From: a virus
Length of the DNA: 64,000 nt
Direction: 5' to 3' (one strand)
Virus record (IMG/VR): IMGVR_UViG_3300036945_001096
Span: 1 to 64,000 of that record
The notes under the pieces: generated by a model
Database searches by the model: none
What the model saw: only the letters and a program-made list of their open reading frames with translations
Told to the model about the DNA's origin: nothing
In this document: in pieces, positions 14,316 through 63,647 of the stretch
Numbering within the stretch: the first letter of the stretch is position 1
Layout of the letters: each line of letters begins with the position of its first letter
Translations under genes and position numbers: made by a program

Positions 14316-14852
14316 ATGAAAGACAAACATGATTATAAGTTAATTTCAGAAGCTTATGCTTCTATCTATAAAGAGAACACCGACGAGGACTACGGAACAA
14401 AAGTAGCTAACGCGGTAGTAAGGTGCGAAGATAACTATGATAGTCTTGGTGATGATCCAACCTGTTTTATAATTTTACCAGAAGATAATAATTCAGACAT
14501 CTACACTAATTATGGGTTTGAAGACCTTATGCTACATATGCCTTATGAATTCGTCGACACTGGTAAACCAGGTCCAGATGCAGACGAGGCTAAATTAACT
14601 ATCGAAGATGCTATTGCTAAAGGAGTATTCAAAACAAAAGACATCACACTCGTGGATGATCCATTATCATTCTTTAATTCAATTGCTAGTGGTAAGCTTA
14701 CAATTTTGGCTTGCACTGAGATTTTGTATAAACAAAGTGGAGGTCCACGTTTCGTAGTAGGTTCAGGTGGGTTAACACTATTTATAGGTGGTCCAAATGC
14801 AGCAAAAGCTGGTAGAGCCTATTACAAAAACTGGTTAGACGAGATGAGTTAA
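14316..14852 (+). CDS. predicted capsid-targeted protein (178 aa)
   Basis: The N-terminus MKDKHDYKLISE-AYAS fits a T4-type capsid-targeting leader with a predicted gp21 cut after Glu12 (I-S-E/A). The mature part is an acidic alpha/beta protein of unknown function. Late promoter with ATG at +1, consistent with a virion protein, although its neighbours are early-type genes. Confidence 0.6.
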   Translation: MKDKHDYKLISEAYASIYKENTDEDYGTKVANAVVRCEDNYDSLGDDPTCFIILPEDNNSDIYTNYGFEDLMLHMPYEFVDTGKPGPDADEAKLTIEDAIAKGVFKTKDITLVDDPLSFFNSIASGKLTILACTEILYKQSGGPRFVVGSGGLTLFIGGPNAAKAGRAYYKNWLDEMS

Positions 14853-14893
14853 CCATTCACAGAACCCACTCACTGATATCATAGCCCCGCCCA

Positions 14894-14923
14894 GCTCTCA
14901 GAGACAAACAGCGCTCTGAGAGC
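14894..14923 (+). other. 10-bp hairpin
   Basis: GCTCTCAGAG/CTCTGAGAGC in the GC-rich spacer after the previous gene. No T-run follows, so it is an mRNA-end stabiliser or a weak terminator. Confidence 0.45.
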
Positions 14924-14983
14924 CCCGAAACACATTGTTATTCTTGGATATAAGAACCTCATATACATATTAGATCATACTAT

Positions 14984-15166
14984 ATGCGTACAGCTATCAA
15001 TCTACTACTAACACTATTCTTTCTAATACTGGCTATCTTAGAAGGAGCTACATTCAAGCAACAAACTACTCTAGTAATGCAAGTACTAGTAATCATTAAG
15101 ATGGCAGTATTCGGTTATATCATGCTATACTTCTCAAATAAGGTCGATGATAAGATTAGTAAGTAA
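14984..15166 (+). CDS. small membrane protein (60 aa), two TM segments
   Basis: Hydrophobic at about residues 4-20 and 30-50, with a polar KQQTT link and a charged tail (NKVDDKISK). Holin-like size and topology, but this alone does not prove a lysis role. A weak AGAAC-N5-ATACAT lies upstream at 14953. Confidence 0.55.
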   Translation: MRTAINLLLTLFFLILAILEGATFKQQTTLVMQVLVIIKMAVFGYIMLYFSNKVDDKISK

Positions 15167-15681
15167 TCAATAGTATCTAGGAACAGTTTTAGTTAGCTAG
15201 TATATAGGAACAAGGAGAGTCTGCTTTATGCGGCTCTCCTTTCTTATTGTTCCGATTCTTAGTACGGCTATATAGTACTCTGTTCCAGTTCCTGCTTACT
15301 AGGCACAAGTACTTGTTCCTGCGTACTTGTAAGCTTCTTTTATATTAGTATCATATAAAGCCTTGCATTTTAATGCGTACGAAACGCAGGAACTGAAATA
15401 GTATACAGGAAAAATATAGACCCTTAAACTTTATAATATCAAAGTTCCTCGAAAAGTGGTTTACGAATTGGAAGCAGCATTCAAAGCTTTTCAGAAAAGT
15501 CAGGTATGAAAGGTGTATTCTATTTTTTCAGAAAAGTGCGGCTTGCATTTTTTACTTTTCTGAAAAGCTTAGGACTTATTTTTCCTCGGATCCTCCTTCA
15601 ACTCTTACAACGGAACTTTAGTAATATAAATGTAGGGCCGATAGAGCCCTTATTAACAACAACAACAAACTAACTACTAAA
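15167..15681 (+). promoter_or_regulatory. 515-bp regulatory region without genes
   Basis: Holds a hairpin AGGAGAG/CTCTCCT flanked by GGAACAA/TTGTTCC (15207-15253) and an 8-bp ACAAGTAC/GTACTTGT hairpin (15305-15330). It also has a GGAAC-N5-TAGTAT promoter (15389-15404), three close palindromes of the CTTTTCAGAAAAG type (15487-15499, 15524-15536, 15555-15567) and GGAAC-N5-TAATAT at 15612-15627 serving the gene at 15682. Confidence 0.55.
15612..15627 (+). promoter_or_regulatory. early-type promoter GGAAC-N5-TAATAT
   Basis: GGAAC 15612-15616, TAATAT 15622-15627; ATG 15682. The three palindromes lie just upstream. Confidence 0.6.
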
Positions 15682-16044
15682 ATGAAGACCCTAAAAGTGC
15701 CAGCCAAGTTCACCGCAGCTCTACTCCATGAAGCCGATAAGAATCGCATTATCGAAATCCGCAAGAAGCTTAACTTGACGGAAAAAGATACGATGACCGC
15801 AATTTTGGATGCGGCCATTCAGCATATGGAAGAGATGGAATTGGCAGCGGAAGCTAAGAATAAGATTGAGGCTGAGGAAAAGGAGGCTCGTCGCAAGGCT
15901 AAGTATGAAGAGTTTAAGGAGGCGCAAAAGGAAGCGCGTCGTTTGATTGCGGCAGGTAAGGTTAAGAAGAATGATATGGTGGAGGATGTAGAAGATGAAG
16001 ATATGGATTCGGATGACGAAGATTCAGAACCCAGCATTGACTAA
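15682..16044 (+). CDS. RHH-like small DNA-binding candidate with acidic tail, copy 2
   Basis: 120 residues, paralogue of the protein at 6049: the same KFTA... strand, 'K.L.LTEKDTMTAILDAA' helices and a Glu/Ala/Lys coiled coil, but with an added very acidic tail (about residues 100-118). It is surrounded by the palindrome cluster, so it is the best candidate for the protein that binds it. Codon use is cleaner than the neighbours', suggesting high expression. A perfect terminator follows. Ribbon-helix-helix assignment is inference. Confidence 0.7.
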   Translation: MKTLKVPAKFTAALLHEADKNRIIEIRKKLNLTEKDTMTAILDAAIQHMEEMELAAEAKNKIEAEEKEARRKAKYEEFKEAQKEARRLIAAGKVKKNDMVEDVEDEDMDSDDEDSEPSID

Positions 16045-16059
16045 AAGTAATTAGCATAA

Positions 16060-17176: not shown

Positions 17177-17800
17177 ATGAAGTTTAAAGATTTAGTTTTA
17201 TTAGCAGAAGATAATGAAAATATTCGAGTTGAAAGAGTGTACTGGGATGATGCTGAGACAAAACCTAAGGAGGAGTATTGGTATAAAGATGGTAAACCTC
17301 ATAGATTAGATTGTCCTGCTCGTCAAGGGTGGTATAAAAATGGTCAAAAAGAATTTGAAGAATGGTATAAAGATAACAAGCTTCATCGCTTAGATGGTCC
17401 TGCTGTTCAACTGTGGTATATAGATGGTCAAAAATATATTGAAGAATGGTTTAGAGATGATGAATTTCATAGATTAGATGGACCTGCTCGTCAATACTGG
17501 TATACAAATGGTCAAAAGATGATTGAAGAGTACTATATAGATGGTAGACCTCATCGCTTAGATGGACCTGCTCGTCAAGATTGGTATAAAAATGGTCAAA
17601 AAGAATTTGAAGAATGGTATAAAGATAGCAAGCTTCATCGCTTAGATGGTCCTGCTAGTCAAGAGTGGGATGAAGATGGTCAAAAGATGATTGAAGAGTA
17701 CTATATAAACGGTAAAGAAATACCACCAAATGAGCTTAAACAACTAACTAAGCAATACGATAAAGAAGATATGGATATATTAGATAACTTAAATTCATAA
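17177..17800 (+). CDS. DGPA-repeat protein 1, predicted capsid cargo
   Basis: 207 residues. The leader MKFKDLVLLAE-D fits a capsid-targeting sequence, cut after Glu11. About five ~30-residue units of the form 'EEWYKDxKLHRLDGPAxxxWYxxGQ' follow, a YwqK/MORN-like beta repeat known in many large phages with no assigned role. It ends in the family tail 'NELKQLTKQYDKEDMDILDNL'-type, shared by all five members in this window. Late promoter with ATG at +1. Confidence 0.75.
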   Translation: MKFKDLVLLAEDNENIRVERVYWDDAETKPKEEYWYKDGKPHRLDCPARQGWYKNGQKEFEEWYKDNKLHRLDGPAVQLWYIDGQKYIEEWFRDDEFHRLDGPARQYWYTNGQKMIEEYYIDGRPHRLDGPARQDWYKNGQKEFEEWYKDSKLHRLDGPASQEWDEDGQKMIEEYYINGKEIPPNELKQLTKQYDKEDMDILDNLNS

Positions 17801-17803
17801 ATA
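17796..17803 (+). promoter_or_regulatory. T4-type late promoter CATAAATA
   Basis: Overlaps the previous stop; ATG 17809 after 5 nt. Confidence 0.6.
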
Positions 17804-17808: not shown

Positions 17809-18357
17809 ATGAAGTTTGATCAATTGATTTTATTAGTAGAGAATATTGAAGATTACCAAGATATTAAAGTTATACATACGTATTGGGATGAGGATGATAC
17901 AAAGCTTAAGTCTGAAGAATGGCTTAAAGATGGTGAATTTCATAGATTAGATGGTCCTGCTCGTCAATGGTGGTATAAAAATGGTCAAAAAGAATTTGAA
18001 GAGTGGTTTAAGAATAGCAAGCTTCATCGCTTAGATGGTCCTGCTGTTCAACTGTGGTATATAGATGGTCAAAAACATATTGAAGAATGGTTTAGAGATA
18101 ATAAACGTTATAGGTTAGATAGACCTGCTTATCAATCATGGCATAAAAATGGTAAAAGGCGAAGTGAAGAATGGTATAAAGATAGCAAGCTTCATCGCTT
18201 AGATGGTCCTGCTAGTCAAGTGTGGAATCAAAATGGTGATAAAATAGAAGAAGAGTACTATATAGATGGTAAAGAACTAACACCAAATGAATTTAAACAG
18301 CTAACTAAGCAATATGATAAAGAAGACTTAGATATCTTAGATGACTTAAATTCATAA
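17809..18357 (+). CDS. DGPA-repeat protein 2, predicted capsid cargo
   Basis: 182 residues. Leader MKFDQLILLVE-N (cut after Glu11). Four repeats nearly identical at DNA level to those of the gene upstream, and the same C-terminal tail (FKQLTKQYDKEDLDILDDL). A recent tandem duplication of the upstream gene; its repeat number differs, as expected from recombination. Confidence 0.75.
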   Translation: MKFDQLILLVENIEDYQDIKVIHTYWDEDDTKLKSEEWLKDGEFHRLDGPARQWWYKNGQKEFEEWFKNSKLHRLDGPAVQLWYIDGQKHIEEWFRDNKRYRLDRPAYQSWHKNGKRRSEEWYKDSKLHRLDGPASQVWNQNGDKIEEEYYIDGKELTPNEFKQLTKQYDKEDLDILDDLNS

Positions 18358-18374: not shown

Positions 18375-18752
18375 ATGAATTTCAACGCTCTTCTAGAAAT
18401 CTTAAATGAAATGTCTGAGACTGGTAGTAATGCTTACACTTTAAATTGGGGTAATGGTGTAGTAGGTGTTAATGTCGTTTTTAAGCCAAGTACTAAAGTA
18501 CTGCATAATGAGAGTGGTCCTGCTGTAGAGCTATTCTATAAAGATGGTAAGCCTAAACTTATATCTCATTATAGAGATGGTCAATTACACAATATAAAAG
18601 GTCCTGCTTTAGAAGAGTATGATCAAGACGGTTCTCTCATCGAGAAGAAATACTATATTAAAGGTAAAGAAGTCTTACCTAATGAAGTATCTCAAGCAGC
18701 TAAAGATTACACTGATGAAGATCTTGATATACTAAACGACCTTAATTCGTAA
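18375..18752 (+). CDS. DGPA-repeat protein 3, predicted capsid cargo
   Basis: 125 residues. Leader MNFNALLEILNE-M (cut after Glu12), only two repeat units (NESGPAVELFYKDG, NIKGPALEEYDQDG), then the family tail (PNEVSQAAKDYTDEDLDILND). Its stop overlaps the next ATG by one base (TAATG). Confidence 0.75.
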   Translation: MNFNALLEILNEMSETGSNAYTLNWGNGVVGVNVVFKPSTKVLHNESGPAVELFYKDGKPKLISHYRDGQLHNIKGPALEEYDQDGSLIEKKYYIKGKEVLPNEVSQAAKDYTDEDLDILNDLNS

Positions 18753-19570
18753 TGTTATCGTTTAAAAAATTTTATTTACAGGAAGGCCTTAAGAGTAAGT
18801 ATCTTATACCACCTACTGATGTAGAGAAAACTACTCGAACACACGTATCTAAAAGAGATAGTTCAGCATTCGACGAAGTATATACCAGAAAATCATGGAG
18901 AGATAAACAAGGTAGATTACATAGAGATGATGGACCTGCTATGATTTTAACTGATAATGAATGGTCTCTAGAGTTAAATCTTAATGAGATTATACAAGAG
19001 TATCCCAATATACATCATATTGAAGCTTGGTATACACACGGTAAGTTGAACAGGGAGAATGGCCCTGCTAAAACTACTATAAAAAATGGTAAGATAGAAT
19101 CACAAGAATGGTACAAAAATGGCAAGTATCACCGTATAGGTGGACCTGCAAATGTATATATTTCACAAGGAAGCGGTAAGTTTAAAGATGAAGATTTTTA
19201 TATTGAAGGTAAGTTACAATACAAGAAACAAACTTCTATAACAGCCAGCAATAGAGAACTTATACAGTATCGTGATCCTCAAAATAGATTACACAGAGAA
19301 GATGATAAACCTGCTTATATCTTACAGCCTTCTTCTTTTAGTAAAACTAAGGAAACAAAGTGGTTAAAACACGGTCAGCTTCACCGTCTAACAGGCCCTG
19401 CCATTATAATTAATTTTTATGGTATGACTAGTCCATCAGGCTCAGTTCTACCTGATATTATGGAGTATTACATTGATGGTAAACAAATATTACCTGGTGA
19501 GTTTAAGCAACTAACTAAGCAGTATAGTACAGAAGATATACAAATGTATAACGACTTAACCAGTCTTTAA
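18752..19570 (+). CDS. DGPA-repeat protein 4, predicted capsid cargo
   Basis: 272 residues. Leader MLSFKKFYLQE-G (cut after Glu11). Four more diverged repeats (HRDDGPA, NRENGPA, HRIGGPA, HRLTGPA) with longer inserts, then the family tail (PGEFKQLTKQYSTEDIQMYNDL). Translationally coupled to the gene before it. Its last 15 nt overlap the convergent gene at 19556. Confidence 0.75.
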   Translation: MLSFKKFYLQEGLKSKYLIPPTDVEKTTRTHVSKRDSSAFDEVYTRKSWRDKQGRLHRDDGPAMILTDNEWSLELNLNEIIQEYPNIHHIEAWYTHGKLNRENGPAKTTIKNGKIESQEWYKNGKYHRIGGPANVYISQGSGKFKDEDFYIEGKLQYKKQTSITASNRELIQYRDPQNRLHREDDKPAYILQPSSFSKTKETKWLKHGQLHRLTGPAIIINFYGMTSPSGSVLPDIMEYYIDGKQILPGEFKQLTKQYSTEDIQMYNDLTSL

Positions 19571-19939
19571 TTTTTCGCTAAGGTAGCTGGAAGTACTTTC
19601 AATTTCGCGTCTAAACTTTAATATAAAGGACGCTATAAATTTTTTAGCTGTTTGCTCGTTAGATAGCATCTTCTTAACAAAAACTGGATTGGTTTTTATA
19701 TTGTTTAGTAGCGCTGCTGTAAAACTATTCCAAGCTGGTGCAGGCTCACCTTCATTAAATAATCCCATATCATTTCTGATAGTCTTGAGCATTTGTAATT
19801 TCTCTGGAGTTATTATTACGTCTTTTACACTTGTCGTACCCTTTTTACCGTATTTAGATATTAGACTTTTTCTATGAGCTGCTAAAGATTTTGTATCAAA
19901 AGCTTCATTTATATATTGTGTAAGAAAAATATTTTCCAT
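19556..19939 (-). CDS. predicted capsid-targeted protein (127 aa)
   Basis: N-terminus MENIFLTQYINE-AFDT, the leader here most like the T4 internal-protein leader as I recall it (QEFIAE-A), cut after Glu12. The mature part is basic and helical. Its start directly follows the stop of the upstream gene at 19940. Last gene of the minus-strand operon. Confidence 0.65.
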   Translation of the reverse strand: MENIFLTQYINEAFDTKSLAAHRKSLISKYGKKGTTSVKDVIITPEKLQMLKTIRNDMGLFNEGEPAPAWNSFTAALLNNIKTNPVFVKKMLSNEQTAKKFIASFILKFRREIESTSSYLSEKLKTG

Positions 19940-21097
19940 TTATTCTATATCCTTATATTTATCACCGTTAAAGTCGTCCATTTGATCTTCGTACTCTGCC
20001 ATTATTTGTTTTACCTGATCTAAAGCTGTATATACAGCTGATTTAGCTTTATCACCACCACCTAGAACATCAGCAATCTTATTTGTCTTTATTAATTGCA
20101 TTACTGTCTGAGGTAGATATTTTGAATCTTTGAAAGGTATAAACTCAACGAATTTTGCGTATAATTCAGGTCCAGTCATTAACTCAACAGTTTCATCGTC
20201 TATTGTTCTTTCATCATGTTCTCCTTGACCTACAAGTGACATGGTTAGATATGTCCACAACCCCTTTACAATCTCATGTATCAATACCGGAAAGAAAGGT
20301 GATAAAGCATATACAGTATAAATATCGTCTTCTGGAACAACTTCAGATGAACCCATTTCAGATTCTGATGAACGCATATTAAGAGGTATATCAGGCATTG
20401 CATAGTATGCAACTTGTATTACTGATGATAATGTGCCATATAATTTTACTAAGTTTGGATCTATTTTATTTAGTTCATCAGAAACCATATTAAACAAGTA
20501 TGTCTTATTAAATGCATTTCCTTGTTTTAACATATTTGCAAACTTCCATTTTAACTTATCATCGCTTGCATCTCCGAGATCTACGGCCAGGTTTAATGTA
20601 ATTTCTTCAGCATTAGTTAGTTCGCCCTCTTCAGGTTCTTCTTCTTTATTTTCAAGATCCTCTTTTGTAATAGCATTACTTAAATCTGCTTGCTCTAATT
20701 TAGCAACTATTTTAAGCTGACCACGATCAATCATGTGCTTAAAAAACTCAAATTCTGGAAGACTTAAAACTGTATCTACTGCTAATTTTTCAAGATGTTG
20801 TTTGTGTGCGTGTTGTACCTGCTGTATCTTAGGTATAGCACTCATTGCAACTGTTAGTAGTTGCGGTAGACCTGTCCTAGCCGGATTTAACCCGGTATAA
20901 TTTCTTAATCTTTCAATTGCCTTTTTATATGATGCACTTGTAACTGTTTCTATGTAATTTGATTCTTTTTGAGATAGAGAAGGCATTAACTTCTCTACAT
21001 CTAAAGATGGTTTATATTTTTTCTCTTTATCACTGTGAAAGAGATTAGGTGCATCACCTTTATCTATAGCTTCGAATATTTTTTTATTAAATTTCAT
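19940..21097 (-). CDS. predicted internal virion protein (385 aa)
   Basis: Leader MKFNKKIFE-AIDK, cut after Glu9. The long mature part is mostly helical, with an acidic linker (about residues 150-165, KEEEPEEGE) and hydrophobic segments near residues 255-290 (PFFPVLIHEIVKGLWTYLT). No enzyme motif seen. The next gene upstream ends 3 nt away and overlaps it. Confidence 0.6.
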   Translation of the reverse strand: MKFNKKIFEAIDKGDAPNLFHSDKEKKYKPSLDVEKLMPSLSQKESNYIETVTSASYKKAIERLRNYTGLNPARTGLPQLLTVAMSAIPKIQQVQHAHKQHLEKLAVDTVLSLPEFEFFKHMIDRGQLKIVAKLEQADLSNAITKEDLENKEEEPEEGELTNAEEITLNLAVDLGDASDDKLKWKFANMLKQGNAFNKTYLFNMVSDELNKIDPNLVKLYGTLSSVIQVAYYAMPDIPLNMRSSESEMGSSEVVPEDDIYTVYALSPFFPVLIHEIVKGLWTYLTMSLVGQGEHDERTIDDETVELMTGPELYAKFVEFIPFKDSKYLPQTVMQLIKTNKIADVLGGGDKAKSAVYTALDQVKQIMAEYEDQMDDFNGDKYKDIE

Positions 21098-21342
21098 TTT
21101 TTACGACGGTGTGATAAAAATAACTTAACATCAGCATTTTCTTCATTCTCTTCACGTGATTTCTTCTTTGCATCAGGGCGTGGTTTTATACCTGGTTTAG
21201 GTGCAAAAGGATGTTCTGGTTTAGATGGTTTACTTGGTGTTTCTGGTTTTGTGCCAGGTTTTACTGTAGGTTTTTCTGGTGTAATAGCAGGTGCTGGTGA
21301 TTCACTAAGTATGTGCTTTATTAAGTCGTCAAATTTTGCCAT
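21094..21342 (-). CDS. proline-rich capsid-targeted peptide (82 aa)
   Basis: Leader MAKFDDLIKHILSE-S, cut after Glu14. The rest is Pro/Lys-rich low complexity (PEKPTVKPGTKPETPSKPSK) ending in basic RRKK. Disordered and cationic, it could neutralise packaged DNA. Overlaps the next gene by 4 nt. Confidence 0.6.
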   Translation of the reverse strand: MAKFDDLIKHILSESPAPAITPEKPTVKPGTKPETPSKPSKPEHPFAPKPGIKPRPDAKKKSREENEENADVKLFLSHRRKK

Positions 21343-21355: not shown

Positions 21356-22987
21356 TTATTCGTTTTCTTCTTTAATCTTTTCTAAGACTTTTGAAGCGTA
21401 TAATTTTCGTACAGGTATATCACCGCTCAAATTATTGAAGTTTAACAAATATGTAATCCCTTTACCTTTTTGTTTTTGTCCTTCTCTTGTAGCCATATCA
21501 ATAACTTGTCTATATGTTACAGAGTTATTTTTCCATATATTTGTAATTGCTTGTTCATTAATTTCAGATGGTTTTAGAGATTCTATCTTTTTTATCATCT
21601 TAGGTGTAAAAAATAAATACACTAAATGTCTTAACGTTTTTCTACTATTAATATAGTTATTTTGTGATTTTTCAGGTAGGTTTATAAAATCAGAACTTGT
21701 TATGAAAATTTGAGGCAGTTCGCAAAGTGTATACTTTATCATATCTGGTAATGTTTTGAAATTTTTAATATTATACTCTGATATAAGTTTTGAAAGTAGT
21801 GTATTTTTTAATGCAGGTAAATACTTCTCACATTGTCTGCAGAATGTTTGTATTGCTTGAGGAAAGTTTTTAAGCTCAGGTGATATATAAAACAAGAGTT
21901 GTTTATAGATACTAAACTTATCTTCTATAGAAATATCTCCAAGTAGGCTGTTAAGTCGCTCTACAAACTCAGGTGATTGAATATTACCTTGAGGTAAATC
22001 TATCTCTTTGGGTCCAGGAATTGCAAATAGATTTTTACTATATGAATCGTATGTACTTTTATTGTACAGAGAAAAACCACCTCTATCAAATCTACCATTT
22101 ATGTACATGGTTTGTAGATCTTTATCCATGTTTATAAAATCTTTTATAAATAATGGCTTACCTACTTGACAATATACCTGTTTTGCTCTATATCTTAGTT
22201 TGTCAAAACTTTCCGGTGTAGCTTTTGTGACAGCATATTCTTCTTGTTCTTTTTTCGATAATGGTATAAATTTTATATACTTCTCTTTATTTTTTAATGC
22301 AGGTATAAGATGTATTACCCTGCTCCATTCCATGCGTGTATCATCCCTGTTATCTTGAGAAGTTAAATAATACTCACCATCTTGTGATATCATCAATACT
22401 GCATTTTGATACTTAGGAGAAGGTGTAGGTACTTTGCTATGAATAAGATATTGTGACCAGAATTGTTCTGGTGAATATTGATTTAACTTTTTAATTCTAT
22501 AAGAGTAATACATATTACTACCACCGGGGTTGCCTATACACCATGAAGAACCCTTAAATGGTGGTAACGCTGGTAATAATGTATTACGAATATATATCCA
22601 CTCTTCTGCATCTCTACCTAGAATTATCTTTATTGTATCGTCTTCGTAAATTTCTTTATACTTAGTACTATCGACTTTAGTATCGGTACTTATCTGAATA
22701 TCTTTTAAACTATCTATTACCTGTTCAAGTTGCTCCCAAGTGAATGAATATATATCCTTAGGGTTTTTAATTTTAGGATAAAATCTATTAACTACACCAA
22801 TAAACCTAGGAGTGTTTTTTAGTTGTTCATATGCCTCTAAGTATGCTGTTATAGCATCATCAGTTAGTTCTGGTCTCTCTTTCTTGTATGTTACGCTCAA
22901 TTTTTTAAGCGTAGCTTCATTAAACTCAAGAATGAGGTTATTAGTATATCTTGTGTATATGTGATAGTCTTCTAAAATATTACTCAT
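21356..22987 (-). CDS. large predicted capsid-cargo protein (543 aa)
   Basis: The N-terminus has candidate gp21 sites I-L-E6, I-L-E21 and F-N-E24, the second or third being the likely end of a leader. The main body is unrecognised. A GSSWCIGNPGG...YYSY stretch near residue 145 resembles the 'xxWC(T/I)' signature of several uncharacterised large-phage proteins. It is the largest cargo candidate and could be an injected effector enzyme. Confidence 0.6.
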   Translation of the reverse strand: MSNILEDYHIYTRYTNNLILEFNEATLKKLSVTYKKERPELTDDAITAYLEAYEQLKNTPRFIGVVNRFYPKIKNPKDIYSFTWEQLEQVIDSLKDIQISTDTKVDSTKYKEIYEDDTIKIILGRDAEEWIYIRNTLLPALPPFKGSSWCIGNPGGSNMYYSYRIKKLNQYSPEQFWSQYLIHSKVPTPSPKYQNAVLMISQDGEYYLTSQDNRDDTRMEWSRVIHLIPALKNKEKYIKFIPLSKKEQEEYAVTKATPESFDKLRYRAKQVYCQVGKPLFIKDFINMDKDLQTMYINGRFDRGGFSLYNKSTYDSYSKNLFAIPGPKEIDLPQGNIQSPEFVERLNSLLGDISIEDKFSIYKQLLFYISPELKNFPQAIQTFCRQCEKYLPALKNTLLSKLISEYNIKNFKTLPDMIKYTLCELPQIFITSSDFINLPEKSQNNYINSRKTLRHLVYLFFTPKMIKKIESLKPSEINEQAITNIWKNNSVTYRQVIDMATREGQKQKGKGITYLLNFNNLSGDIPVRKLYASKVLEKIKEENE

Positions 22988-22988: not shown

Positions 22989-23684
22989 TTAAAGTCCTGT
23001 TAAATCCGAGTATAAGTCAATGTCAGTAGAATCATAACCTTTAGCAAATGACTTGAATTCATTTTGTGTCAGCGCTTTACCGCCTATAAAAAATAGCTCT
23101 TGTGTATCTACATTAGAATCTTTACTCAATTTGAGGACTGCAGGTCCTGTTGAATTATGTAATTCACCGTTTCTATAATATTCTATCATATGATAGAAAG
23201 CAAAATCAATAACTGCAGGTCCGTTTTCATTATGTAGATTACCTCTTGAATTATATGTTTTTAATGACATATCACCGCTGTAATTTATTTTTATCTCAAG
23301 TATACCATTATTTACTAATCTGTAGCGTCCAGGTCCAACTATAGGTTGATTAGGATCTCTAAGCTGTAAATTTTTGATAAATTTAATAGCGTAGTGTCTA
23401 CTATAATCAAACTCAGAATAAGCTTCATTATCAATAAAGAACATTTTTTTATTACCTCTTACGTGATAGAATGCAGGTCCGTTAAGATTATTTAGCTTAT
23501 ATACGTTACCATTTCTGTAAGCGTACATAATTATGTTATTCTCATCGACTATCTTAAAAGATGTAAAGTACTTACCTGAAGGTTCGATTTTATCAAACAC
23601 CCAGCAGGATTCTTTATTTAATACTGCTCTACGTAAGTTTTCACGTACAGCAGTAGCAAGCTCGCTTGTAGGTGTAACGTACAT
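22989..23684 (-). CDS. DGPA-repeat protein 5, no leader
   Basis: 231 residues. Three repeat units (LNGPAFYHV, NENGPAVIDF, STGPAVLKL) and the family tail (TQNEFKSFAKGYDSTDIDLYSDL) mark it as a relative of the proteins at 17177-19570, but the N-terminus (MYVTPTSELATAV) shows no capsid-targeting leader. It lies inside the minus-strand cargo operon. Confidence 0.7.
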   Translation of the reverse strand: MYVTPTSELATAVRENLRRAVLNKESCWVFDKIEPSGKYFTSFKIVDENNIIMYAYRNGNVYKLNNLNGPAFYHVRGNKKMFFIDNEAYSEFDYSRHYAIKFIKNLQLRDPNQPIVGPGRYRLVNNGILEIKINYSGDMSLKTYNSRGNLHNENGPAVIDFAFYHMIEYYRNGELHNSTGPAVLKLSKDSNVDTQELFFIGGKALTQNEFKSFAKGYDSTDIDLYSDLTGL

Positions 23685-24334
23685 TAATCTAGTCCGAGTA
23701 ATTTATCTAGATTTTGTGCTGAGTACTTACCTAGACCTGCAGGATCTGTAATTGGTTTATCCTTTGGTTTGTTGCGTGGAAACTCGTCATCAGAGAAGTT
23801 TCTTAATATACCTGATTGTACTGCAGCATCGGTTATACCTCTTGCAATATACTCAACATATGTTTTACCTATCTTTACATCACCTTTTGTCATTTCAGGT
23901 ATTGCTCTTGCAACAATAGGCTTAACTACTTGCTCTCTAAATTGAAGATTTGTACCCATAAATCTACCATCTGGGCTTTCAGATAGTTTATCAAGTATTT
24001 GTGTTAAAATTAAATTAGCAACTTTAACAGATGTTTCTGGTGACATTTCTCTAAATTTTGTTATAAACGCTAAATAGAAGCGCCATGTATGTGTACCAGG
24101 TTCTGCACCTTGATATGCAACACGTGGTCTTTCACCTTCTGGTGTTTCTTCATGTGTACTCTTTGCTAAAGCTAACATTTTTTCACGAGCAGTAGGATGT
24201 TCGGGGGCATATTCACCTGCTTCATAGGGTGGGAATGCTTCATTTACTGTCTTTTGACTATTTTCATTTACAAGTATAGATTTACCTGCTATTTGTTTTG
24301 CGTAAAGATTATTTAATTCTTCGTGAAAGCTCAT
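23684..24334 (-). CDS. predicted capsid-targeted protein (216 aa)
   Basis: The start at 24334 (MSFHEELNN) was chosen because a late octamer lies 5 nt upstream; an upstream TTG was rejected. Candidate cuts: V-N-E24 and V-N-E32/A, the latter like the capsid protein's own M-V-N-E/A. The mature protein is Pro-rich, then helical. First gene of the minus-strand cargo operon. Confidence 0.65.
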   Translation of the reverse strand: MSFHEELNNLYAKQIAGKSILVNENSQKTVNEAFPPYEAGEYAPEHPTAREKMLALAKSTHEETPEGERPRVAYQGAEPGTHTWRFYLAFITKFREMSPETSVKVANLILTQILDKLSESPDGRFMGTNLQFREQVVKPIVARAIPEMTKGDVKIGKTYVEYIARGITDAAVQSGILRNFSDDEFPRNKPKDKPITDPAGLGKYSAQNLDKLLGLD

Positions 24335-24856: not shown

Positions 24857-25249
24857 ATGGATAAACTTAATGACATAAAGCAGATAGGTATGTTGTATGA
24901 AAGCGGTCTCAATATGTGGGCTATTGCTGATACACAGCAAAAAAATCAAGCACATAATAATATGCCAACATCTGACGTAAAGAACAGCTACGCTAATGCT
25001 AACAGTACTAGTAACTTACCAGGTAATTCAGCTAAAACAAACACTGCAGGTATTCCAGGAGCATCAGGTTCGTTTAGTGAAAGTGAAGAAATTATGGTAA
25101 AAGGATACGGTAAGATGACTAAAAATCAACTAAAAAATTTGATAGATAAAACTGTTGATTCTGTATCCGAAATGAAGAAGCTTAAAAAATATAGTCAGAT
25201 TACAACAAAACTGGAAATGCTTGCGACTCTATTAAAGCATTATAACTAA
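24857..25249 (+). CDS. predicted capsid-targeted protein (130 aa)
   Basis: Leader MDKLNDIKQIGMLYE-SGLN, cut after Glu15. A low-complexity Asn/Ser/Ala linker (residues 30-75) follows, then a basic helical end. Lies just before tail gene 15. Function unknown. Confidence 0.55.
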   Translation: MDKLNDIKQIGMLYESGLNMWAIADTQQKNQAHNNMPTSDVKNSYANANSTSNLPGNSAKTNTAGIPGASGSFSESEEIMVKGYGKMTKNQLKNLIDKTVDSVSEMKKLKKYSQITTKLEMLATLLKHYN

Positions 25250-31866: not shown

Positions 31867-32712
31867 ATGATAACATTTAAGGACTATTTTTTAATTGAAC
31901 GTAAACGTAGAGAGGAGTATCATACTGGGTTCTCTATCGAGAACAAACTTAAAGATAGAGAAAATTATATATCTATATTATCTAGACTTGGGGTGTTTGA
32001 TAAATTAAATGCACAGCCAGTGGTTAGAATAGCATCTCTCCCAGATACCTATGATTTTGAACGTAAAATAATATCAAATCTACCTAATCCAACCATAGAG
32101 ATATATGGTGTCGATTATACCCCTACTAAAGCTTTTGAACAAGGTCGAAGATTTATTAGAGATGCATCTAATAATAAATTAAGTGTGTATGTGCCTTTTA
32201 CAAAAAGAAAAATTGTTAAGTTTGAAAATGTATTACAACAACCGCAAAAATTCATCAATGTTGTTGATAATAATATTGTAGACAAACCAATATTATTCGA
32301 TATAGTCGATTATGATACTACTACTACAGCAATACCAGAGGCTATAGATGCGATAGCACATGTATTCAATAATCTTACACCTAATGGATTTATTCATGTT
32401 ACATTCACTAATCTAATTAGATCTAAGTCTTATATAGATACCAGAATTAATAGGTCTAAGTATGATGAGAGTGATACAATAAACACTACTGAACCAGATG
32501 ATGCTAATTTCTATGAGTTACCGGAAGACGCATATATAGATGAGTTTAACATAAACATAGGTAAAAATATTAAGAACAACCTACTACAAGTTAAAAATGC
32601 TAACTACACTACTGCTAATTTGATTAGCCATGGTCTCAAACATGTACATGTGTCTTTATATCCGAGTAAATGGGGTAATGCAATGATGTATAGTGGTGTG
32701 TTTGTAAAATGA
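31867..32712 (+). CDS. predicted capsid-targeted protein, possible Rossmann/MTase-like fold
   Basis: 281 residues. Leader MITFKDYFLIE-RKRR, cut after Glu11. The mature part shows 'TIEIYGVDYTPTKAFEQGRRF' and 'FDIVDYDTTTTAIPEAIDAIAHVFNNLTPNGFIHVTF', a rhythm like class I methyltransferases, but the SAM-binding glycine motif is not evident. Sits among head genes. Confidence 0.55.
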   Translation: MITFKDYFLIERKRREEYHTGFSIENKLKDRENYISILSRLGVFDKLNAQPVVRIASLPDTYDFERKIISNLPNPTIEIYGVDYTPTKAFEQGRRFIRDASNNKLSVYVPFTKRKIVKFENVLQQPQKFINVVDNNIVDKPILFDIVDYDTTTTAIPEAIDAIAHVFNNLTPNGFIHVTFTNLIRSKSYIDTRINRSKYDESDTINTTEPDDANFYELPEDAYIDEFNINIGKNIKNNLLQVKNANYTTANLISHGLKHVHVSLYPSKWGNAMMYSGVFVK

Positions 32713-33225: not shown

Positions 33226-33888
33226 ATGAGTTTTAGACTAATAGTTGAGACACCTACTAATAACAACGATTTTTCTTATATCGTTGAAGAGCGTAATGCT
33301 AATGAACCTAGAACACTCTATATAAAGGGGCCATATATGATGGCAGAGGGTGTCAATAGAAATAAGCGTCTATATCCTATCGATGAAATGGTCCGTGAAG
33401 TTCAGCGCTACGAAGATGATATGATTAAGCCTGGTAGAGCAATGGGTGAACTTAATCACCCTACCACAGCTGACGTAGATCTATCTAGAGTCTGTCACTT
33501 AGTTACAGAACTAAAAAGAGATGGTAATGTATTTTACGGTAAAAGTAAAGTACTATCAACACCTACAGGTCTTATAGTTCGCTCACTTATTAACGACGGT
33601 GTTAAAGTTGGTATGAGTTCTAGAGCTTTAGGGCAATTAATACCTGAATCAAACGGTTGTAATAGAGTAAAAGATTTTAGACTAGTAGCAATCGATTGCG
33701 TTGCAGATCCAAGTTTCGGTAAAGCGTTTGTTAATGGTATTCTCGAATCTAAACAATATGTATTGAGAGAGAATGGACATTATGAAGAATTATATGATAC
33801 TTTTGAAAAGAAGTTAATAACTTTACCTCGCTCCGATAAAGATCAATATCTACGTAGCGCGATTCTTAGTTTTATAAATAAATTATAA
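33226..33888 (+). CDS. 21: prohead core protease gp21
   Basis: 220 residues. Serine-protease signatures of T4 gp21: His78 in 'MGELNHPT' and Ser131/132 in 'KVGMSSRALG', with 'DCVADPSFG' following as the likely third residue region. The protein begins MSFRLIVE-T, itself a hydrophobic-x-Glu site fitting self-processing at Glu8. It should mature gp23, gp22 and all leader-bearing cargo proteins of this window. Confidence 0.93.
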   Translation: MSFRLIVETPTNNNDFSYIVEERNANEPRTLYIKGPYMMAEGVNRNKRLYPIDEMVREVQRYEDDMIKPGRAMGELNHPTTADVDLSRVCHLVTELKRDGNVFYGKSKVLSTPTGLIVRSLINDGVKVGMSSRALGQLIPESNGCNRVKDFRLVAIDCVADPSFGKAFVNGILESKQYVLRENGHYEELYDTFEKKLITLPRSDKDQYLRSAILSFINKL

Positions 33889-34087: not shown

Positions 34088-34942
34088 ATGGAGAATATTA
34101 ACGAACAATTAAAAGACCTCTCACCTGAATCTTTAAAAATGATTCAAGAGGCTATTGAATCAAAGGTAAAAGCAAAAGTTGAACTCCATGTTGAGAAAGC
34201 TCTTGCTGAACAAGATGAACTTTATACTAAGAAGCTCGAGCAACTACTCGAAGCTATTGATAAAGATCATACAATTAAATTAGAAAAGGTAGTAGAAGCT
34301 ATTGAACTAGATAGAGCAAACAAACTTAAGAAGGTTGTTTCTAAGTATGAGAGAACACTAAATGAAGATGCTAAGAAGTTTAAACAAACCTTAGTTGAAT
34401 CTATCAGTGACTATCTCGAAGCTTATCTTGAAGAGATAGTACCTGCTGCTGACATTCAAGAAGCTGTTAAAAACAAGAAAGCAGCCAAACTACTTGAATC
34501 ACTACGAAACACTTTAGCTGTCACATCTGCACTTGAAAGAGATTCTATCAAAGATGCAGTGCTTGATGGTAAAAACCAAATAAATGAAGCTTCTAAAAAG
34601 CTTGAGTCTATCCAAAGCGAAAACGCTATGTTAAAAGAATCCCTACAGCAAATACAAGCTGGTTTGATTCTAGAACAAAAAACCGCCAAACTTAACGATC
34701 AAGAAAAATATTACGTTAAGAAAGTAATGGCTGGCAAATCGCTGGAATTTATAAATGAAAATTTTGATTACACAGTCAAACTCTTCAATAAGAAATTAAC
34801 AGATAGACTCGAAGTCTTGAAAGAAGAAGCACTAAATGAGCGCCAAGATGTTGATCATGTTGTTACAGAACAGACAGAAGAAGTGATCACAGAAGGCGTG
34901 CAACAAATTTCTCCTTACCTAAAAGAATTAGGTAAGTACTAA
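34088..34942 (+). CDS. 22: prohead scaffold protein gp22
   Basis: 284 residues, almost entirely charged coiled coil (EKALAEQDELYTKKLEQLLE ...), directly upstream of the capsid gene as in T4. Contains 'VAPADIQEAV'-like and 'LNDQEKYYVKKVMAGKS' segments typical of T4-like scaffolds. Multiple L/I-x-E sites fit degradation by gp21. Confidence 0.88.
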   Translation: MENINEQLKDLSPESLKMIQEAIESKVKAKVELHVEKALAEQDELYTKKLEQLLEAIDKDHTIKLEKVVEAIELDRANKLKKVVSKYERTLNEDAKKFKQTLVESISDYLEAYLEEIVPAADIQEAVKNKKAAKLLESLRNTLAVTSALERDSIKDAVLDGKNQINEASKKLESIQSENAMLKESLQQIQAGLILEQKTAKLNDQEKYYVKKVMAGKSLEFINENFDYTVKLFNKKLTDRLEVLKEEALNERQDVDHVVTEQTEEVITEGVQQISPYLKELGKY

Positions 34943-35022: not shown

Positions 35023-36477
35023 ATGAACACTATTCGTCCTACACAAGCATATATCAATGAATCAAGAGCAAAGGCGCTTCTTGAGAAGTGGGGTCCAGTT
35101 TTGGATTACTCTTCTAAGAACGTTGCTCCGATTGAAGACAACCACACCCGTTTAAATACAGCAATGCTATTGGAAAACCAAGAGCAATGGTGTATGGTTA
35201 ACGAAGCTGGTCCTAACTACAACCCATCCGGTACAGTTAATACTGCCGGTTTCGGTGGTGCAGTTGGTGGCACAGCAGGTATGAACTCATGGAACTCTAC
35301 CGGTACACCTGGTACAGATACATACGCACCTGGTGACTACCGTCTTCCAAAAATCTTGATCCCCATGATCCGCCGTACTTTCCCAGAGCTTATCTCTAAC
35401 GAAATTGTCGGCGTTCAACCAATGGCTGGTCCAGTAGGTCTCGCATTCGCTCTTCGTTATCGCTACACAGGTAGCACTTTAGGTTCTAATGGCAACGCTC
35501 CTGCCGGTCAGTCTGGTATTCTTACCTCTGCAGCTGGTCAGGAAGCAGGCTATCAGTACCTTAACAGTGCTTACACCGGTACATCCGCAGCCTACCTTTC
35601 TGGTAGCTCTGCATTGCCCGTTAATTTTATTAATAACGGTCAAAATAACGGTGTAGCAGCTCTTCTATCAAGCTTTGAAATCTCGGAAAACATTCCGACA
35701 TTTGAAGTTTCATTTGAAAAGACTGCTGTTGAAGCTGGTACAAGACGCTTAGGCGCCCGCTGGTCCGTAGAGCTTGAGCAAGACCTCAAGAACATGAACG
35801 GTATTGATATCGACACTGAATTAACAAACGCTATGAGCTATGAAATTCAGGCCGAAATCGACCGTGAAATGATTATTAGAATGATCCAAGTCGCCCTCAA
35901 TGCAGGTGCTGGCGTTGGTTATTCTATCTGGTCTCCTGCTTCAGCAGATGGCCGTTGGTTGGTCGAACGTAACCGTGACTTCTATCAAAGACTAATTATC
36001 GAAGCTAACCGTATTGCTGTACGTAATCGTCGTGGCGCTGCAAACTTCATTGTTGCAACACCTCGCGTTTGCGCAATCCTTGAAATGCTACCTGAATTCC
36101 AATGGGTACCAGTTCAAGGCAATGTTAACACACAGCCAGTCGGTGTTGCTAAGGTAGGTAGCCTTGGTGGTCGTTTCCAGGTTTACAGAGACACCAGAAC
36201 AGAAGGTCAATACGTTGATACTACAAATCGTCCAGAATATGCACTACTTGGCTACAAGGGTCCAGAATTCTACGATACCGGTATCATCTACTGCCCATAC
36301 ATACCTGTTATGGTACAACGCACCATTGGTCAGAACGACTTTGCACCACGTGTTGGTCTATTAACCCGTTACGGTGTTGTAGACAACATTTTCGGCGCAA
36401 ACCTCTACTACCACGTTATTATAGTAAGCGGACTCGGTCAGGCATTCACACCTGGCAATCAGTCAGTTTACTTCTAA
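35023..36477 (+). CDS. 23: major capsid protein gp23
   Basis: 484 residues. T4 gp23 signatures: 'LIPMIRRTFPELISNEIVGVQPM', 'TGPVGLAFALRYRY'-like, 'RRLGARWSVELEQDLKNMNGID', 'AEIDREM', and 'GRFQVYRDT'. The N-terminal pro-region has sites at Y-I-N-E13 and M-V-N-E61/A; the latter matches the position of T4 maturation cleavage (after residue 65). Codon use is the most GC-rich and uniform of the window, as expected for the most abundant protein. Confidence 0.97.
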   Translation: MNTIRPTQAYINESRAKALLEKWGPVLDYSSKNVAPIEDNHTRLNTAMLLENQEQWCMVNEAGPNYNPSGTVNTAGFGGAVGGTAGMNSWNSTGTPGTDTYAPGDYRLPKILIPMIRRTFPELISNEIVGVQPMAGPVGLAFALRYRYTGSTLGSNGNAPAGQSGILTSAAGQEAGYQYLNSAYTGTSAAYLSGSSALPVNFINNGQNNGVAALLSSFEISENIPTFEVSFEKTAVEAGTRRLGARWSVELEQDLKNMNGIDIDTELTNAMSYEIQAEIDREMIIRMIQVALNAGAGVGYSIWSPASADGRWLVERNRDFYQRLIIEANRIAVRNRRGAANFIVATPRVCAILEMLPEFQWVPVQGNVNTQPVGVAKVGSLGGRFQVYRDTRTEGQYVDTTNRPEYALLGYKGPEFYDTGIIYCPYIPVMVQRTIGQNDFAPRVGLLTRYGVVDNIFGANLYYHVIIVSGLGQAFTPGNQSVYF

Positions 36478-47971: not shown

Positions 47972-48199
47972 ATGGGGTTCAATAAATTAGTTAAATTTCT
48001 ATTGGAGGGTGGTTTTAGAGCACCTATAGATACAAAAAGACCTGTAAAGGTTCCTAATATGCCTAATCATGGTACTGTGAACCCTCTTATTGGTAATAAG
48101 TCTACACCCTCTGCGTACAGTGGATTTAAAGGTGATAGACTAAATCCATCTATATCTACAGTAACATTCAGATTACCTAGAAAGAAGAAGAAAAAGTAG
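47972..48199 (+). CDS. small basic capsid-targeted peptide precursor (75 aa)
   Basis: Leader MGFNKLVKFLLE-GGFR, cut after Glu12. The remaining 63 residues are Pro/Asn/Ser-rich and end in RKKKKK, a strongly cationic tail suited to binding packaged DNA. Stands alone on the plus strand between two minus-strand operons, with its own perfect late promoter. Confidence 0.65.
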   Translation: MGFNKLVKFLLEGGFRAPIDTKRPVKVPNMPNHGTVNPLIGNKSTPSAYSGFKGDRLNPSISTVTFRLPRKKKKK

Positions 48200-48200: not shown

Positions 48201-48764
48201 CTACTTTTTATAATAAAAAATGTGATTACCTATAATTACTGTTTGGTAGCCGCTTTTCTTTAGTTTTGGTCCCCACGTTGGCTTTACAGCTAGTGTATGG
48301 TAATACTCAGCACCTTTAGTATGGTTTGTTAAATCATCAGATGCAATTTTCTTAGCTATTGAAAAACTTTTTGGATCTTTTTTAGCAATAGAGTCTATAA
48401 CATCTTTTGTAGGTGCTATATTATTCCAGCATGAGAATTGCTTAGGTTCAGTACATATTTGAGATAGAGATTTTTTTTTCTTTTTAGATCTATTATGTAT
48501 AACCTCATTTACAGCCTCCATACCTTTCTTACCTTCACCTCTAGCTTCCTTATATAACGTAGCAGCAACAATATCTATATCTGTCGCAGTTTTGGAAGCC
48601 GTCCTATTACGTTGCGACTGTGCGATAGTTGCAGGCATCTGAAAATTTACACTCATATCTGAAGCTTTAGTGTAAGGTGTTAAAGCAGCTAGACCTGCTA
48701 ATCCTAATGCTTTTAGTTTAGTCTTGAGAGACTCATCCAATTTGTAATATGTAGAGAACTTCAC
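48201..48764 (-). CDS. SleB/CwlJ-like cell-wall hydrolase with capsid-targeting leader
   Basis: 187 residues. Leader MKFSTYYKLDE-S, cut after Glu11. Then a hydrophobic stretch and, from ~60, the hydrolase_2 pattern 'IVAATLYKEARGEGKKGMEAVNEVIHNR', 'QICTEPKQFSCWN' and 'GAEYYHTLAVKPTWG', with the catalytic-type Glu in YKEARGE. It cleaves peptidoglycan. The start is GTG, 5 nt after a perfect late octamer. Packaging in the head would let it act at DNA entry rather than at lysis. Confidence 0.8.
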   Translation of the reverse strand: MKFSTYYKLDESLKTKLKALGLAGLAALTPYTKASDMSVNFQMPATIAQSQRNRTASKTATDIDIVAATLYKEARGEGKKGMEAVNEVIHNRSKKKKKSLSQICTEPKQFSCWNNIAPTKDVIDSIAKKDPKSFSIAKKIASDDLTNHTKGAEYYHTLAVKPTWGPKLKKSGYQTVIIGNHIFYYKK

Positions 48765-61902: not shown

Positions 61903-61928
61903 ATAGTATTATATTAAATATTTTATAT

Positions 61929-62273
61929 ATGTCAACCGTAAACATAGGTATCAATCAGTTACCTGTAACAAATGAAATTATTAATGGAGATTATCTGATA
62001 GTAGATAATGGTATTGAGACCAGACGTCTAGATTTTAAAGATTTTATAGTAGGTTTAGATAATGTCACGTTTGCGTCTACTATTAGTAGCAACTCATCAG
62101 ATATATTGTCGTTGTCCTCGGCTGTTACTACTAATACGTTGAATATATCGTCGTTATCTTCAACTTTTTACGGGCAAACTACGACTTCTGCTGTTTTAAC
62201 AAGTTCTACACACTATATAAAAATAAGAATAAATGGTGCAAACTACGCAATAATGCTTAGTGCTACCAATTAA
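61929..62273 (+). CDS. small fibre-like protein (114 aa)
   Basis: 'INQLPVTNEIINGDYLIVDNGIETRRLDFKDFI' is the attachment-type N-terminus also seen at 37674 and 26571, followed by a Ser/Thr-rich beta region. Probably a short fibre or adaptor. Its end overlaps the convergent kinase gene by 4 nt. Confidence 0.6.
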   Translation: MSTVNIGINQLPVTNEIINGDYLIVDNGIETRRLDFKDFIVGLDNVTFASTISSNSSDILSLSSAVTTNTLNISSLSSTFYGQTTTSAVLTSSTHYIKIRINGANYAIMLSATN

Positions 62274-63061
62274 CGTTTATTTTTCTTTACAAATTCCTTA
62301 ATTTGTTTAATTTCTTTCTTATAGGCTTTTTCTTTCTTATCGATAGCTTTTTGGTCACTAAGAATTGAGCCTATTTGATCTACTAACAAATTATTAGGGT
62401 TTAGTATATTATTAGGGTTTAGTATATTATTGGGATCATTAACGTCTCCACCTATACATTCACCGTTCTGATTTAAGTATAGCTTGATCATTTGAATACG
62501 TTCTTGACGATTACCAAATATTTCTATAACCGCAGGGCAGTCATCTGTAGGAAAGAACGGTGTTTTACCTAAACCCAATCTATATTGCATATTAAGAGCT
62601 TTGAAAATATTGTCAATCTCTTTAATATAAACACCATCGGATTCTCTCAATCCGTCATTTTCAATCTTAACAGGTGATACCCTAGTAATGGGTATAAAAA
62701 AGATAATATCTAGATGTCTTAAACTTTCTCTTACAATAGGTATGCACTTATCGATAAATTCCTTATCAATATCACCTACGTTATTTTCAAAGCACCATAG
62801 TGAGTATACTAGATTATCTAGCGGACATCTGTCGAATATGACGTTATCAGTAAGTGTATATTTTTGGAGCTCATCCAACATAAAGTTCAATATCTTCCAC
62901 TGGCTGTCTTTGGTAGCATTTTTACTATGAGGTAAATTTGCAGTTTTTATTAAGTCTCTATAAGTAGAGCTTTCAGATTTAAATAAAGGCCATTCTGTTA
63001 GAAAGTCTTTAATAAGAGTACTCTTCCCTTGTGAAGCCGTCCCTGAAATCGCGATACGCAT
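62270..63061 (-). CDS. NadR-like P-loop kinase, copy 2
   Basis: 263 residues. Walker A 'GTASQGKSTLI', 'DNVIFDRCPLDNLVYSLW' in the same relative place as the protein at 39212, so the two are paralogues. It has a C-terminal extension with an Asn-Pro repeat (ILNPNN x3) and a basic coiled coil. ATG 63061 preferred over an upstream GTG. Substrate unknown. Confidence 0.65.
   Translation of the reverse strand: MRIAISGTASQGKSTLIKDFLTEWPLFKSESSTYRDLIKTANLPHSKNATKDSQWKILNFMLDELQKYTLTDNVIFDRCPLDNLVYSLWCFENNVGDIDKEFIDKCIPIVRESLRHLDIIFFIPITRVSPVKIENDGLRESDGVYIKEIDNIFKALNMQYRLGLGKTPFFPTDDCPAVIEIFGNRQERIQMIKLYLNQNGECIGGDVNDPNNILNPNNILNPNNLLVDQIGSILSDQKAIDKKEKAYKKEIKQIKEFVKKNKR
62391..62432. repeat. 18-bp tandem repeat in a coding region
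   Basis: ATTATTAGGGTTTAGTAT unit repeated about 2.3 times, encoding ILNPNN repeats on the minus strand. Confidence 0.7.
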
Positions 63062-63089
63062 AATTGATATTATATGCTTTAGACATAAA

Positions 63090-63118
63090 AAATCCACGAA
63101 TTAAAAATTCGTGGATTT
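63090..63118 (-). terminator. terminator after the H1-like gene
   Basis: 13-bp stem AAATCCACGAATT/AATTCGTGGATTT; T-run on the minus strand. Confidence 0.8.
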
Positions 63119-63131
63119 ACATTAATTTTAA

Positions 63132-63647
63132 TTATGGTGTACTAGTAGGTGCGGCTACTTTTGGTTTTGGCTTGGTTGTTGCCTTGGTTGTTGCCTTGGT
63201 TGTTGCCTTGCCAGATGTACCTTTGATGTTACTAATTACTTCATCAAATGCTTTGTTTAGATTGCTCTTAAAATTATTGAGACTTTGTGGAGATATTTTT
63301 TTCAAGTCAATACCTAGCTTTTGTAAATCAGTAAAGACTTCGTTTGAAACTTTGTCAAACTTTTTGATAGCTGTATTTCTATAAGATTGTACTTTAGCTA
63401 CTGGACCTGCGGTCTTTCCTTGCTGAACTTGTATTGTAGCTTGTTTAACACCAGCTACATTACCTTTAGCACCTGCTATTGCACCTTTAACTTTACCAGA
63501 TACTTGTTTACCCATACCTTGTACAGCACCTACAGCACCTGCTGCTTTTGACTTAATACGATCAATAAGACCTTCGTTTAAACTCTCAACCTGTTTATTA
63601 GTACCCATGTACTTTTCGAAAATAAGTTCGTTCTCTCTATTATTCAT
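63132..63647 (-). CDS. Ala/Lys-rich H1-like capsid-targeted protein (171 aa)
   Basis: The leader has sites I-F-E11 and, better, S-L-N-E25/G. The mature part is Ala/Gly/Lys-rich and ends in three KATT units and KPKPK, like histone H1 tails or bacterial H1-like proteins. A helical region (about 90-145) lies between. Late octamer 5 nt before the ATG. Likely an internal DNA-condensing protein. Confidence 0.65.
   Translation of the reverse strand: MNNRENELIFEKYMGTNKQVESLNEGLIDRIKSKAAGAVGAVQGMGKQVSGKVKGAIAGAKGNVAGVKQATIQVQQGKTAGPVAKVQSYRNTAIKKFDKVSNEVFTDLQKLGIDLKKISPQSLNNFKSNLNKAFDEVISNIKGTSGKATTKATTKATTKPKPKVAAPTSTP

Follow-up and report, generated by a model that had tools for sequence, protein, structure and literature searches.

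Why should so many proteins of one T4-like virus, with bodies that have little in common, begin in the same way? The stretch considered here, hereafter the window, comprises 64,000 nucleotides (positions 1 to 64,000) of the 98,267-base IMG/VR virus record IMGVR_UViG_3300036945_001096. A sequence-only reading had named in it 15 open reading frames (ORFs), besides those of the capsid protein and the prohead protease, whose products start with short leaders of the kind that direct the internal proteins of phage T4 into the prohead, where gp21 cuts after Glu. We put at roughly 0.72 the probability that a T4-type capsid-targeting system handles most of the 15 as its cargo, and packaging by the T4 capsid-targeting/gp21 route appears to be the likeliest reading of these sequences.

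All 15 ORFs and their leaders are present as named. The Glu stands at residue 9-25 in every one, with I, L or V two positions ahead of it in 15/15 (a hydrophobic-x-Glu cut site being the basis on which the leaders were selected), and it is followed by A, G, S, N, D or K in 12/15, the exceptions being M (18375), F (21356) and R (31867). Two rules were used to describe them. The loose rule requires a Glu at residue 8-26, a hydrophobic residue two before it and a hydrophobic leader. The T4-derived rule was built on the residues of T4 internal protein IPIII found important in mutagenesis, 4 and 7 for targeting and 8 and 10 for processing (PMC9026906, which also covers the packaging of fusions in T4), and its spacing was widened after the window leaders had been seen. 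It asks for a leader of some 10-20 residues with aromatic or hydrophobic targeting residues around positions 4 and 7; 8 of the 15 fit it and the other seven do not. The T4 late promoter is TATAAATA; its core, TAAATA, is called the late motif, with its distance from the start codon.

The sequences compared were G001, an IMG/VR record of 209,282 bases, near-identical to the window record, in which the gene order of the window is reversed and two window proteins recur at 100% identity; G002, a 31 kb relative in which the same two proteins are 83% and 78% identical; and the more distant G003, G005 and G006, recruited via gp23. The 15 genes are as follows, a slash marking the predicted cut and pI the isoelectric point.

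14316..14852, plus strand: 178-residue protein, leader MKDKHDYKLISE/AYASIY, of a second type (LI[FS]E/AY); late motif at -15/-11; outside the T4-derived rule; good
17177..17800, plus strand: MORN-like repeat protein, 207 residues, leader MKFKDLVLLAE/D; fits the T4-derived rule; late motif at -11; leader kept in the G002 array; good
17809..18357, plus strand: MORN-like repeat paralogue, 182 residues, leader MKFDQLILLVE/N; fits the T4-derived rule; late motif at -11; good
18375..18752, plus strand: MORN-like paralogue, 125 residues (MORN_2 at E 0.00096, under the Pfam cut-off), leader MNFNALLEILNE/M; fits the T4-derived rule; late motif at -13; Glu kept in G002; good
18752..19570, plus strand: MORN-like paralogue, 272 residues, leader MLSFKKFYLQE/G; fits the T4-derived rule; G002 leader 9/11, body 70% identical; good
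19556..19939, minus strand: 127 residues, basic body (pI 10.0), leader MENIFLTQYINE/A; TAAATA at -22; G002 leader 11/12, body 70% identical; good
19940..21097, minus strand: 385 residues, leader MKFNKKIFE/A; G002 MKNYKKVLE/A (leader 5/9, pattern kept, body 84%); good
21094..21342, minus strand: 82 residues, basic body (pI 10.1), leader MAKFDDLIKHILSE/S; fits the T4-derived rule; late motif at -11; Glu kept in G002; good
21356..22987, minus strand: 543 residues, putative long leader ending LILE/F at residue 21, with Phe after the cut; G002 LIRE/F; weak
23684..24334, minus strand: 216 residues, putative leader ending LVNE/N at residue 24; the 24334 start is backed by a late motif at -11; G002 LVTE; weak
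24857..25249, plus strand: 130 residues, leader MDKLNDIKQIGMLYE/S; late motif at -11; distant homologues end SLFE/S and MIYE/G; good
31867..32712, plus strand: 281 residues, leader MITFKDYFLIE/R; fits the T4-derived rule; no late motif; no homologue in the compared sets; plausible
47972..48199, plus strand: 75 residues, basic body (pI 11.5), leader MGFNKLVKFLLE/G; fits the T4-derived rule; late motif at -11; kept in G002; good
48201..48764, minus strand: SleB-type cell wall hydrolase (PF07486, E 1.4e-15), 187 residues, leader MKFSTYYKLDE/S; fits the T4-derived rule; late motif at -11; Glu kept in G002; plausible
63132..63647, minus strand: 171 residues, basic body (pI 10.4), leader MNNRENELIFEKYMGTNKQVESLNE/G, possible earlier cut at LIFE/K; late motif at -11; good

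For the 11 genes graded good there is strong support for the proposal of T4-type capsid-targeting leaders: conservation in relatives, a late motif shared with head genes, a conserved protease, and the same kind of leader on an enzyme reported in cyanophage virions. Support is uneven for the other four: 31867 and 48201 are plausible cargo, and 21356 and 23684, with long and atypical leaders, are weak candidates. The head genes concerned lie in the same window.

33226..33888, plus strand: gp21-type prohead protease, the presumed cutter, starting MSFRLIVE/T; PF03420 matches in the G001 and G002 orthologues
34088..34942, plus strand: gp22-type scaffold, the presumed docking core; PF25623, E 3.2e-6, 27.3 bits, just above the cut-off of 27
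35023..36477, plus strand: gp23 major capsid protein with VNE61/A; PF07068, E 8.9e-92

Both the leader-like start of gp21 and the VNE/A of gp23, with its Glu at residue 61, had been noticed from the letters alone and are read in the sequence. When aligned with T4 gp21 the protease retains the blocks GELNHP, SSR and D.V..PS, which we take to hold the catalytic residues. The first 12 of 2,494 matching phage records listed for gp23 are all cyanophages at 33-35% identity, so that no close isolate was found, although nearer records may be missing there.

The leaders are real and non-random. Under the T4-derived rule 15 of 318 G001 genes match, compared with 2.8 in shuffles (maximum 8 in 200 shuffles) and 2.4 in internal windows, and counts are likewise above expectation in G002 (6/40), G003 (10/313), G005 (9/198), G006 (6/119) and T4 (10/272, IPII and IPIII included, IPI and Alt not). 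Of the 843 distinct ORFs at 80 gp23 loci, 14 match where 6.2 would be expected, though two of these resemble gp21 itself. A cut-anchored profile trained on 25 leaders of G003, G005 and G006 finds a modest excess in G001 (five genes with a score of at least 10, versus 0.9 shuffled and 1.8 internal); it scores T4 IPII and IPIII well, and IPI and Alt low. Its top scorer in T4 is gene 61.1 (18966-19130, locus L139; annotated hypothetical), which begins MKTFKEFIKE/D, nearly the IPI leader, and whose product is possibly packaged.

Persistence in relatives provides the second line of evidence. The Glu is retained in 11/11 aligned G001-G002 pairs and so, by reading, is the hydrophobic residue two before it; the G002 partners of 17177 and 17809 were taken from a tandem paralogue array. 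Among more distant orthologues in G003, G005 and G006 a loose-rule leader occurs in 20/37 pairs where G001 has one and in 16/184 where it has none (family-level permutation p = 5e-5; 221 G001 pairs in 91 families, a set which contains gp21 and false positives such as MQKINLDFFE). Leaders are retained where the bodies are only 27-52% identical. The G005 orthologue of 63132, for instance, starts MAQQFENIIKRIEE/GFFDRI and is 39% identical. Two clear families lie outside the window, one with MNNYQKRFQKFLLE/QD, MSLFNKVFDTVLE/AD, MDLFKRAFSVVLE/QD and MTMKSFSDRFISLFE/AD (bodies 41-47% identical) and one with MQKKFLTLIE/N, MEMKFIKLYE/A, MKRKFNGLLE/S and MNLKFTKLFE/S (identity of the bodies 32-33%). 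Three of the four members of the family to which G001 gene 128649 belongs have the Glu site (MVITFKIFFE, MKTFKQYIQE, MKPFRCYYSE). Similar genes for proteins of 351-382 residues with clear leaders also stand near gp23 in other contigs: L008:280-1335 (MKFNELVKYILNE/G), L017:28-1146 (MKFNDLAKLVTE/A), L034:2076-3224 (MTFNDLVQFYLNE/A) and L036:1109-2224 (MKFSELAGLITE/K).

The late motif provides the third. Exactly at -11, 40 of 299 G001 genes carry TAAATA, where 0.31 would be expected per position, and so do genes of G003 (31/288), G005 (21/187) and G006 (17/116); a gp55 homologue is present in 4/4 records searched. In ten of the 15 leader genes the motif lies between -15 and -11, and gp23, gp21 and the portal gene have it in that range too. 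Of the five without it there, 18752 and 19940 overlap the upstream gene, 21356 follows closely behind it, 19556 has the box at -22 and 31867 has none. With the four records pooled, a loose-rule leader occurs in 46/220 late-motif genes and in 73/728 others (p = 3.6e-5). Among G001 late-motif genes of at least 50 residues 56/74 lack such a leader, and the leader is thus not simply the way in which late genes begin.

In T4 and the cyanophage S-SCSM1 the box lies near -24 to -40, whereas it is at exactly -11 here (starts such as 17177, 35023 and 47972), and Shine-Dalgarno-like sites are rare in G001, G003, G005 and G006 (7-11% of genes versus 42% in T4). If transcription began at the spacing from the late box that is familiar in T4, the late mRNAs of the clade would be leaderless; alternatively TAAATA at -11 could be a Bacteroidota-type initiation signal. 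A run of minus-strand genes at 48773-61902 is without the late box, except for TAAATA at -7 of 52551; several of its starts look like glycosyltransferases or methyltransferases, presumably.

The best outside evidence, and the most useful new link suggested by the sequences, is a cyanophage enzyme. Proteomics reported 41 virion proteins in S-SM1, including a putative cytidylyltransferase, T4-GC190 (PMC3037559), and 45 in S-SCSM1, including a nicotinamide mononucleotide (NMN) adenylyltransferase (NMNAT), for which the authors weighed carriage in the virion against residue after CsCl purification (PMC9602691). These two proteins start MKKFSAFLNE/A and MKSFLQFLKE/A, respectively. The pattern M[KR]xFxxF[LI]xE/A, in the register of T4 IPIII, occurs in 7/9 cyanophage NMNAT orthologues (L145:3256, L151:38819 and L161-L165), the nine being seven from the 50 listed of 518 matching records together with S-SM1 and S-SCSM1. 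In S-T4 and S-SSM6a the leader was read upstream of the annotated start, in the latter from a GTG. The NMNAT of Flavobacterium phage immuto sits within a far larger protein, and S-SM1 GC15, also reported in the virion, is without a leader. The second leader type has a counterpart too: S-SCSM1 ORF89, an annotated virion protein, starts MDSKTFNSLSE/AYAAVY, close to window 14316, and two examples of the type were compared with this virion-detected protein. Leaders of this form (M, a polar run, LI[FYST]E, then [ASNK]) are carried by late-motif genes in the window (14316, 63132), G003 (78487, 190841, 196099, 214248, 214766), G005 (95572, 98287) and G006 (44768).

Several results weigh against packaging as the explanation. 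The T4-derived rule shows no enrichment in the cyanophages (S-SCSM1 3/277, S-SM1 2/212), and the exact T4 register spacing is found in only 2/318 G001 genes against 0.4 expected (p = 0.06, not significant). Taken by itself, G006 shows no significant association of the late motif with a loose-rule leader (p = 0.31). Leaders are more identical than bodies in only some G001-G002 pairs (19556) and less so in others (19940), and in the G006 member of the 128649 family YYNK replaces the Glu site. The NMNATs of HTVC008M and S-CAM1 have no leader. In S-SCSM1 the loose rule picks out 4/48 annotated virion proteins (the record annotates 48 where the paper gives 45) and 26/235 others, that is, without enrichment, and ORF30 contains MKTFKQFMSE yet is not annotated as a virion protein.

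If, as is likely, the T4 route is in use, the cargo proteins would be made late, alongside the head proteins; the short amphipathic N-terminal leader would dock each of them into the scaffold core, the gp21-type protease would cut after hydrophobic-x-Glu during head maturation, and the freed body would remain in the head with the DNA, to be delivered into the next host cell by analogy with T4, where it might serve an early role in counter-defence or take-over. The sequences themselves show the leaders, their persistence in relatives, the shared late motif, the conserved protease blocks and the occurrence of one leader type on unrelated bodies; docking, cutting, retention, injection and the role in the host are inferred. 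These bodies comprise MORN-like proteins, the SleB hydrolase, small basic proteins and large proteins of no known family.

It is unlikely that the leaders are docking or scaffold elements only, the proteins helping to build the head or acting within it with no function delivered to the host. Several bodies are small and basic (47972, 19556, 21094, 63132), as this would suggest, and in T4 the assembly of heads is slowed when IPIII is lost (PMC9026906). Acidic or enzyme-like bodies also occur, however, content varies among near relatives, and each of T4 Ip1-3, once injected, blocks a GmrSD nuclease (PMC12373910). G002 is without 31867 and carries, directly behind its portal gene, a leader gene (MKTFKLFFE/S) that has no counterpart at that place in the window. 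The MORN-like repeat genes, mostly with leaders, have expanded differently in the window (17177-19570, 22989-23684) and in G002 (13-2895, 6302-6994, 11620-12585).

Coincidence is quite unlikely to account for most of the 15. An AT-rich genome will yield starts rich in K, F, L and I in which a Glu often follows, and the loose rule has a high background: it matches 41/318 G001 genes, 25.2 when shuffled, and about 7.5% of internal windows. It fails, as noted, to pick virion proteins in S-SCSM1. The motif by itself is no proof, for MQKINLDFFE, presumably the start of a replicative helicase, and MNKFLFLDLDE, which we take to begin a HAD-type enzyme, match as well. Against chance stand the T4-type matches, 15 where shuffles or internal windows of the same proteins give 2.4-2.8, and a pattern that persists across relatives and is linked to the late motif. 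That the N-termini serve export or membrane targeting, or are merely favoured late-gene starts, is very unlikely: 48201 has a hydrophobic stretch beyond residue 15, after the leader, which could mean export, and the late motif is common to many leader genes, but most G001 late-motif genes lack a loose-rule leader and the site at the end of the leaders is of the kind that gp21 cuts.

Among known systems, T4 IPI-III and Alt resemble the window proteins most directly in the short N-terminal leader, the hydrophobic-x-Glu site, the aromatic or hydrophobic residues near 4 and 7, the unrelated bodies and the gp21/gp22/gp23 head module. They differ in number (the G001 candidates, about 26 by eye, are several times the T4 set), in the more variable spacing of the leaders here and in bodies which are unrelated as far as searched; cutting and injection here are predicted. 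The cyanophage NMNAT or cytidylyltransferase T4-GC190 is likewise an enzyme with a T4-register leader, reported from virions, but supplied a single clear leader case per genome in the two cyanophages read. The giant phages phiKZ and SPN3US likewise have many inner-head and ejection proteins, which a related prohead protease cleaves behind Glu and which are ejected (PMC5694885). The SPN3US motif is A-x-E and most propeptides are long (PMC5694885), whereas the window leaders are I/L/V-x-E with 9-25 residues in 15/15, and the 15 do not fit that type.

The range of candidate cargo is wide. There are five related MORN-like genes (17177, 17809, 18375, 18752 and 22989), four of them with leaders; for leaders such as that of 17809, M1, F3, L6, L8, L9 and E11 are invariant in five paralogues. 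In related phages leaders also stand on a Zn-protease-like protein (G001, under the Pfam cut-off) and on NMNAT-like proteins in G005 and G006 (the Pfam match in G005 weak) and, by eye only, in G003; no such leader enzyme was found in the window. Wall-degrading enzymes of two unrelated Pfam families carry them, phage lysozyme (G003 16822) and SleB (window 48201). Pfam and PHROGs scans gave no confident family for most scanned cargos, and at the sensitivity used IMG/VR yielded G001 and G002 as the only records with homologues of 19940, of 21356 and of the MORN-like family. Structure predictions from two sequences each had mean pLDDT of 40 (21356, 543 residues) and 34 (19940, 385 residues), and the models were not used.

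The suggestion that a whole genomic district is devoted to such genes holds. Among ORFs of at least 75 residues, 9/15 between 14,316 and 25,249 fit the loose rule compared with 9/70 in the remaining window (p = 3e-4), and 5/15 compared with 3/70 fit the T4-derived rule (p = 0.004). Two genes of the district, 22989 and 24391, are nevertheless leaderless, and more leader genes occur beyond the window. The 26 candidates found by eye in G001, the 15 included, were assembled from several lists under no single rule, and the fixed-rule excess is about 12; the true number of cargo proteins is probably between these figures. T4 has three described Ips, and across its relatives the internal proteins reported number at least 10 (PMC12373910).

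We regard this as probably a known mechanism at unusually large scale in an uncultured clade, new in its scale and range of cargo rather than in its mechanism. A search of the literature on capsid targeting, internal proteins and leaderless late promoters, covering the titles and abstract openings listed, with preprints and most subscription journals outside its scope, turned up no earlier description of these leaders, either for this clade or for the cyanophage NMNAT, which is weak evidence of absence. At even odds, we suggest, this uncultured T4-like clade has made of the capsid-targeting/gp21 route a general protein-delivery platform, each phage carrying some two dozen exchangeable cargos, poised to act in the host ahead of any phage gene expression; a protease-like protein and a wall hydrolase would be among them, as would the NMNAT-like enzymes of sister phages. 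If the reading is true, the leader would offer a reason for the published puzzle of an NMN adenylyltransferase in cyanophage virions. A tag visible in the N-terminal sequence would then single out those T4-like phage genes of no known function whose products are packaged and probably delivered and, because T4 Ip1-3 block restriction nucleases (PMC12373910), would supply a pool of candidate early-acting anti-defence proteins.

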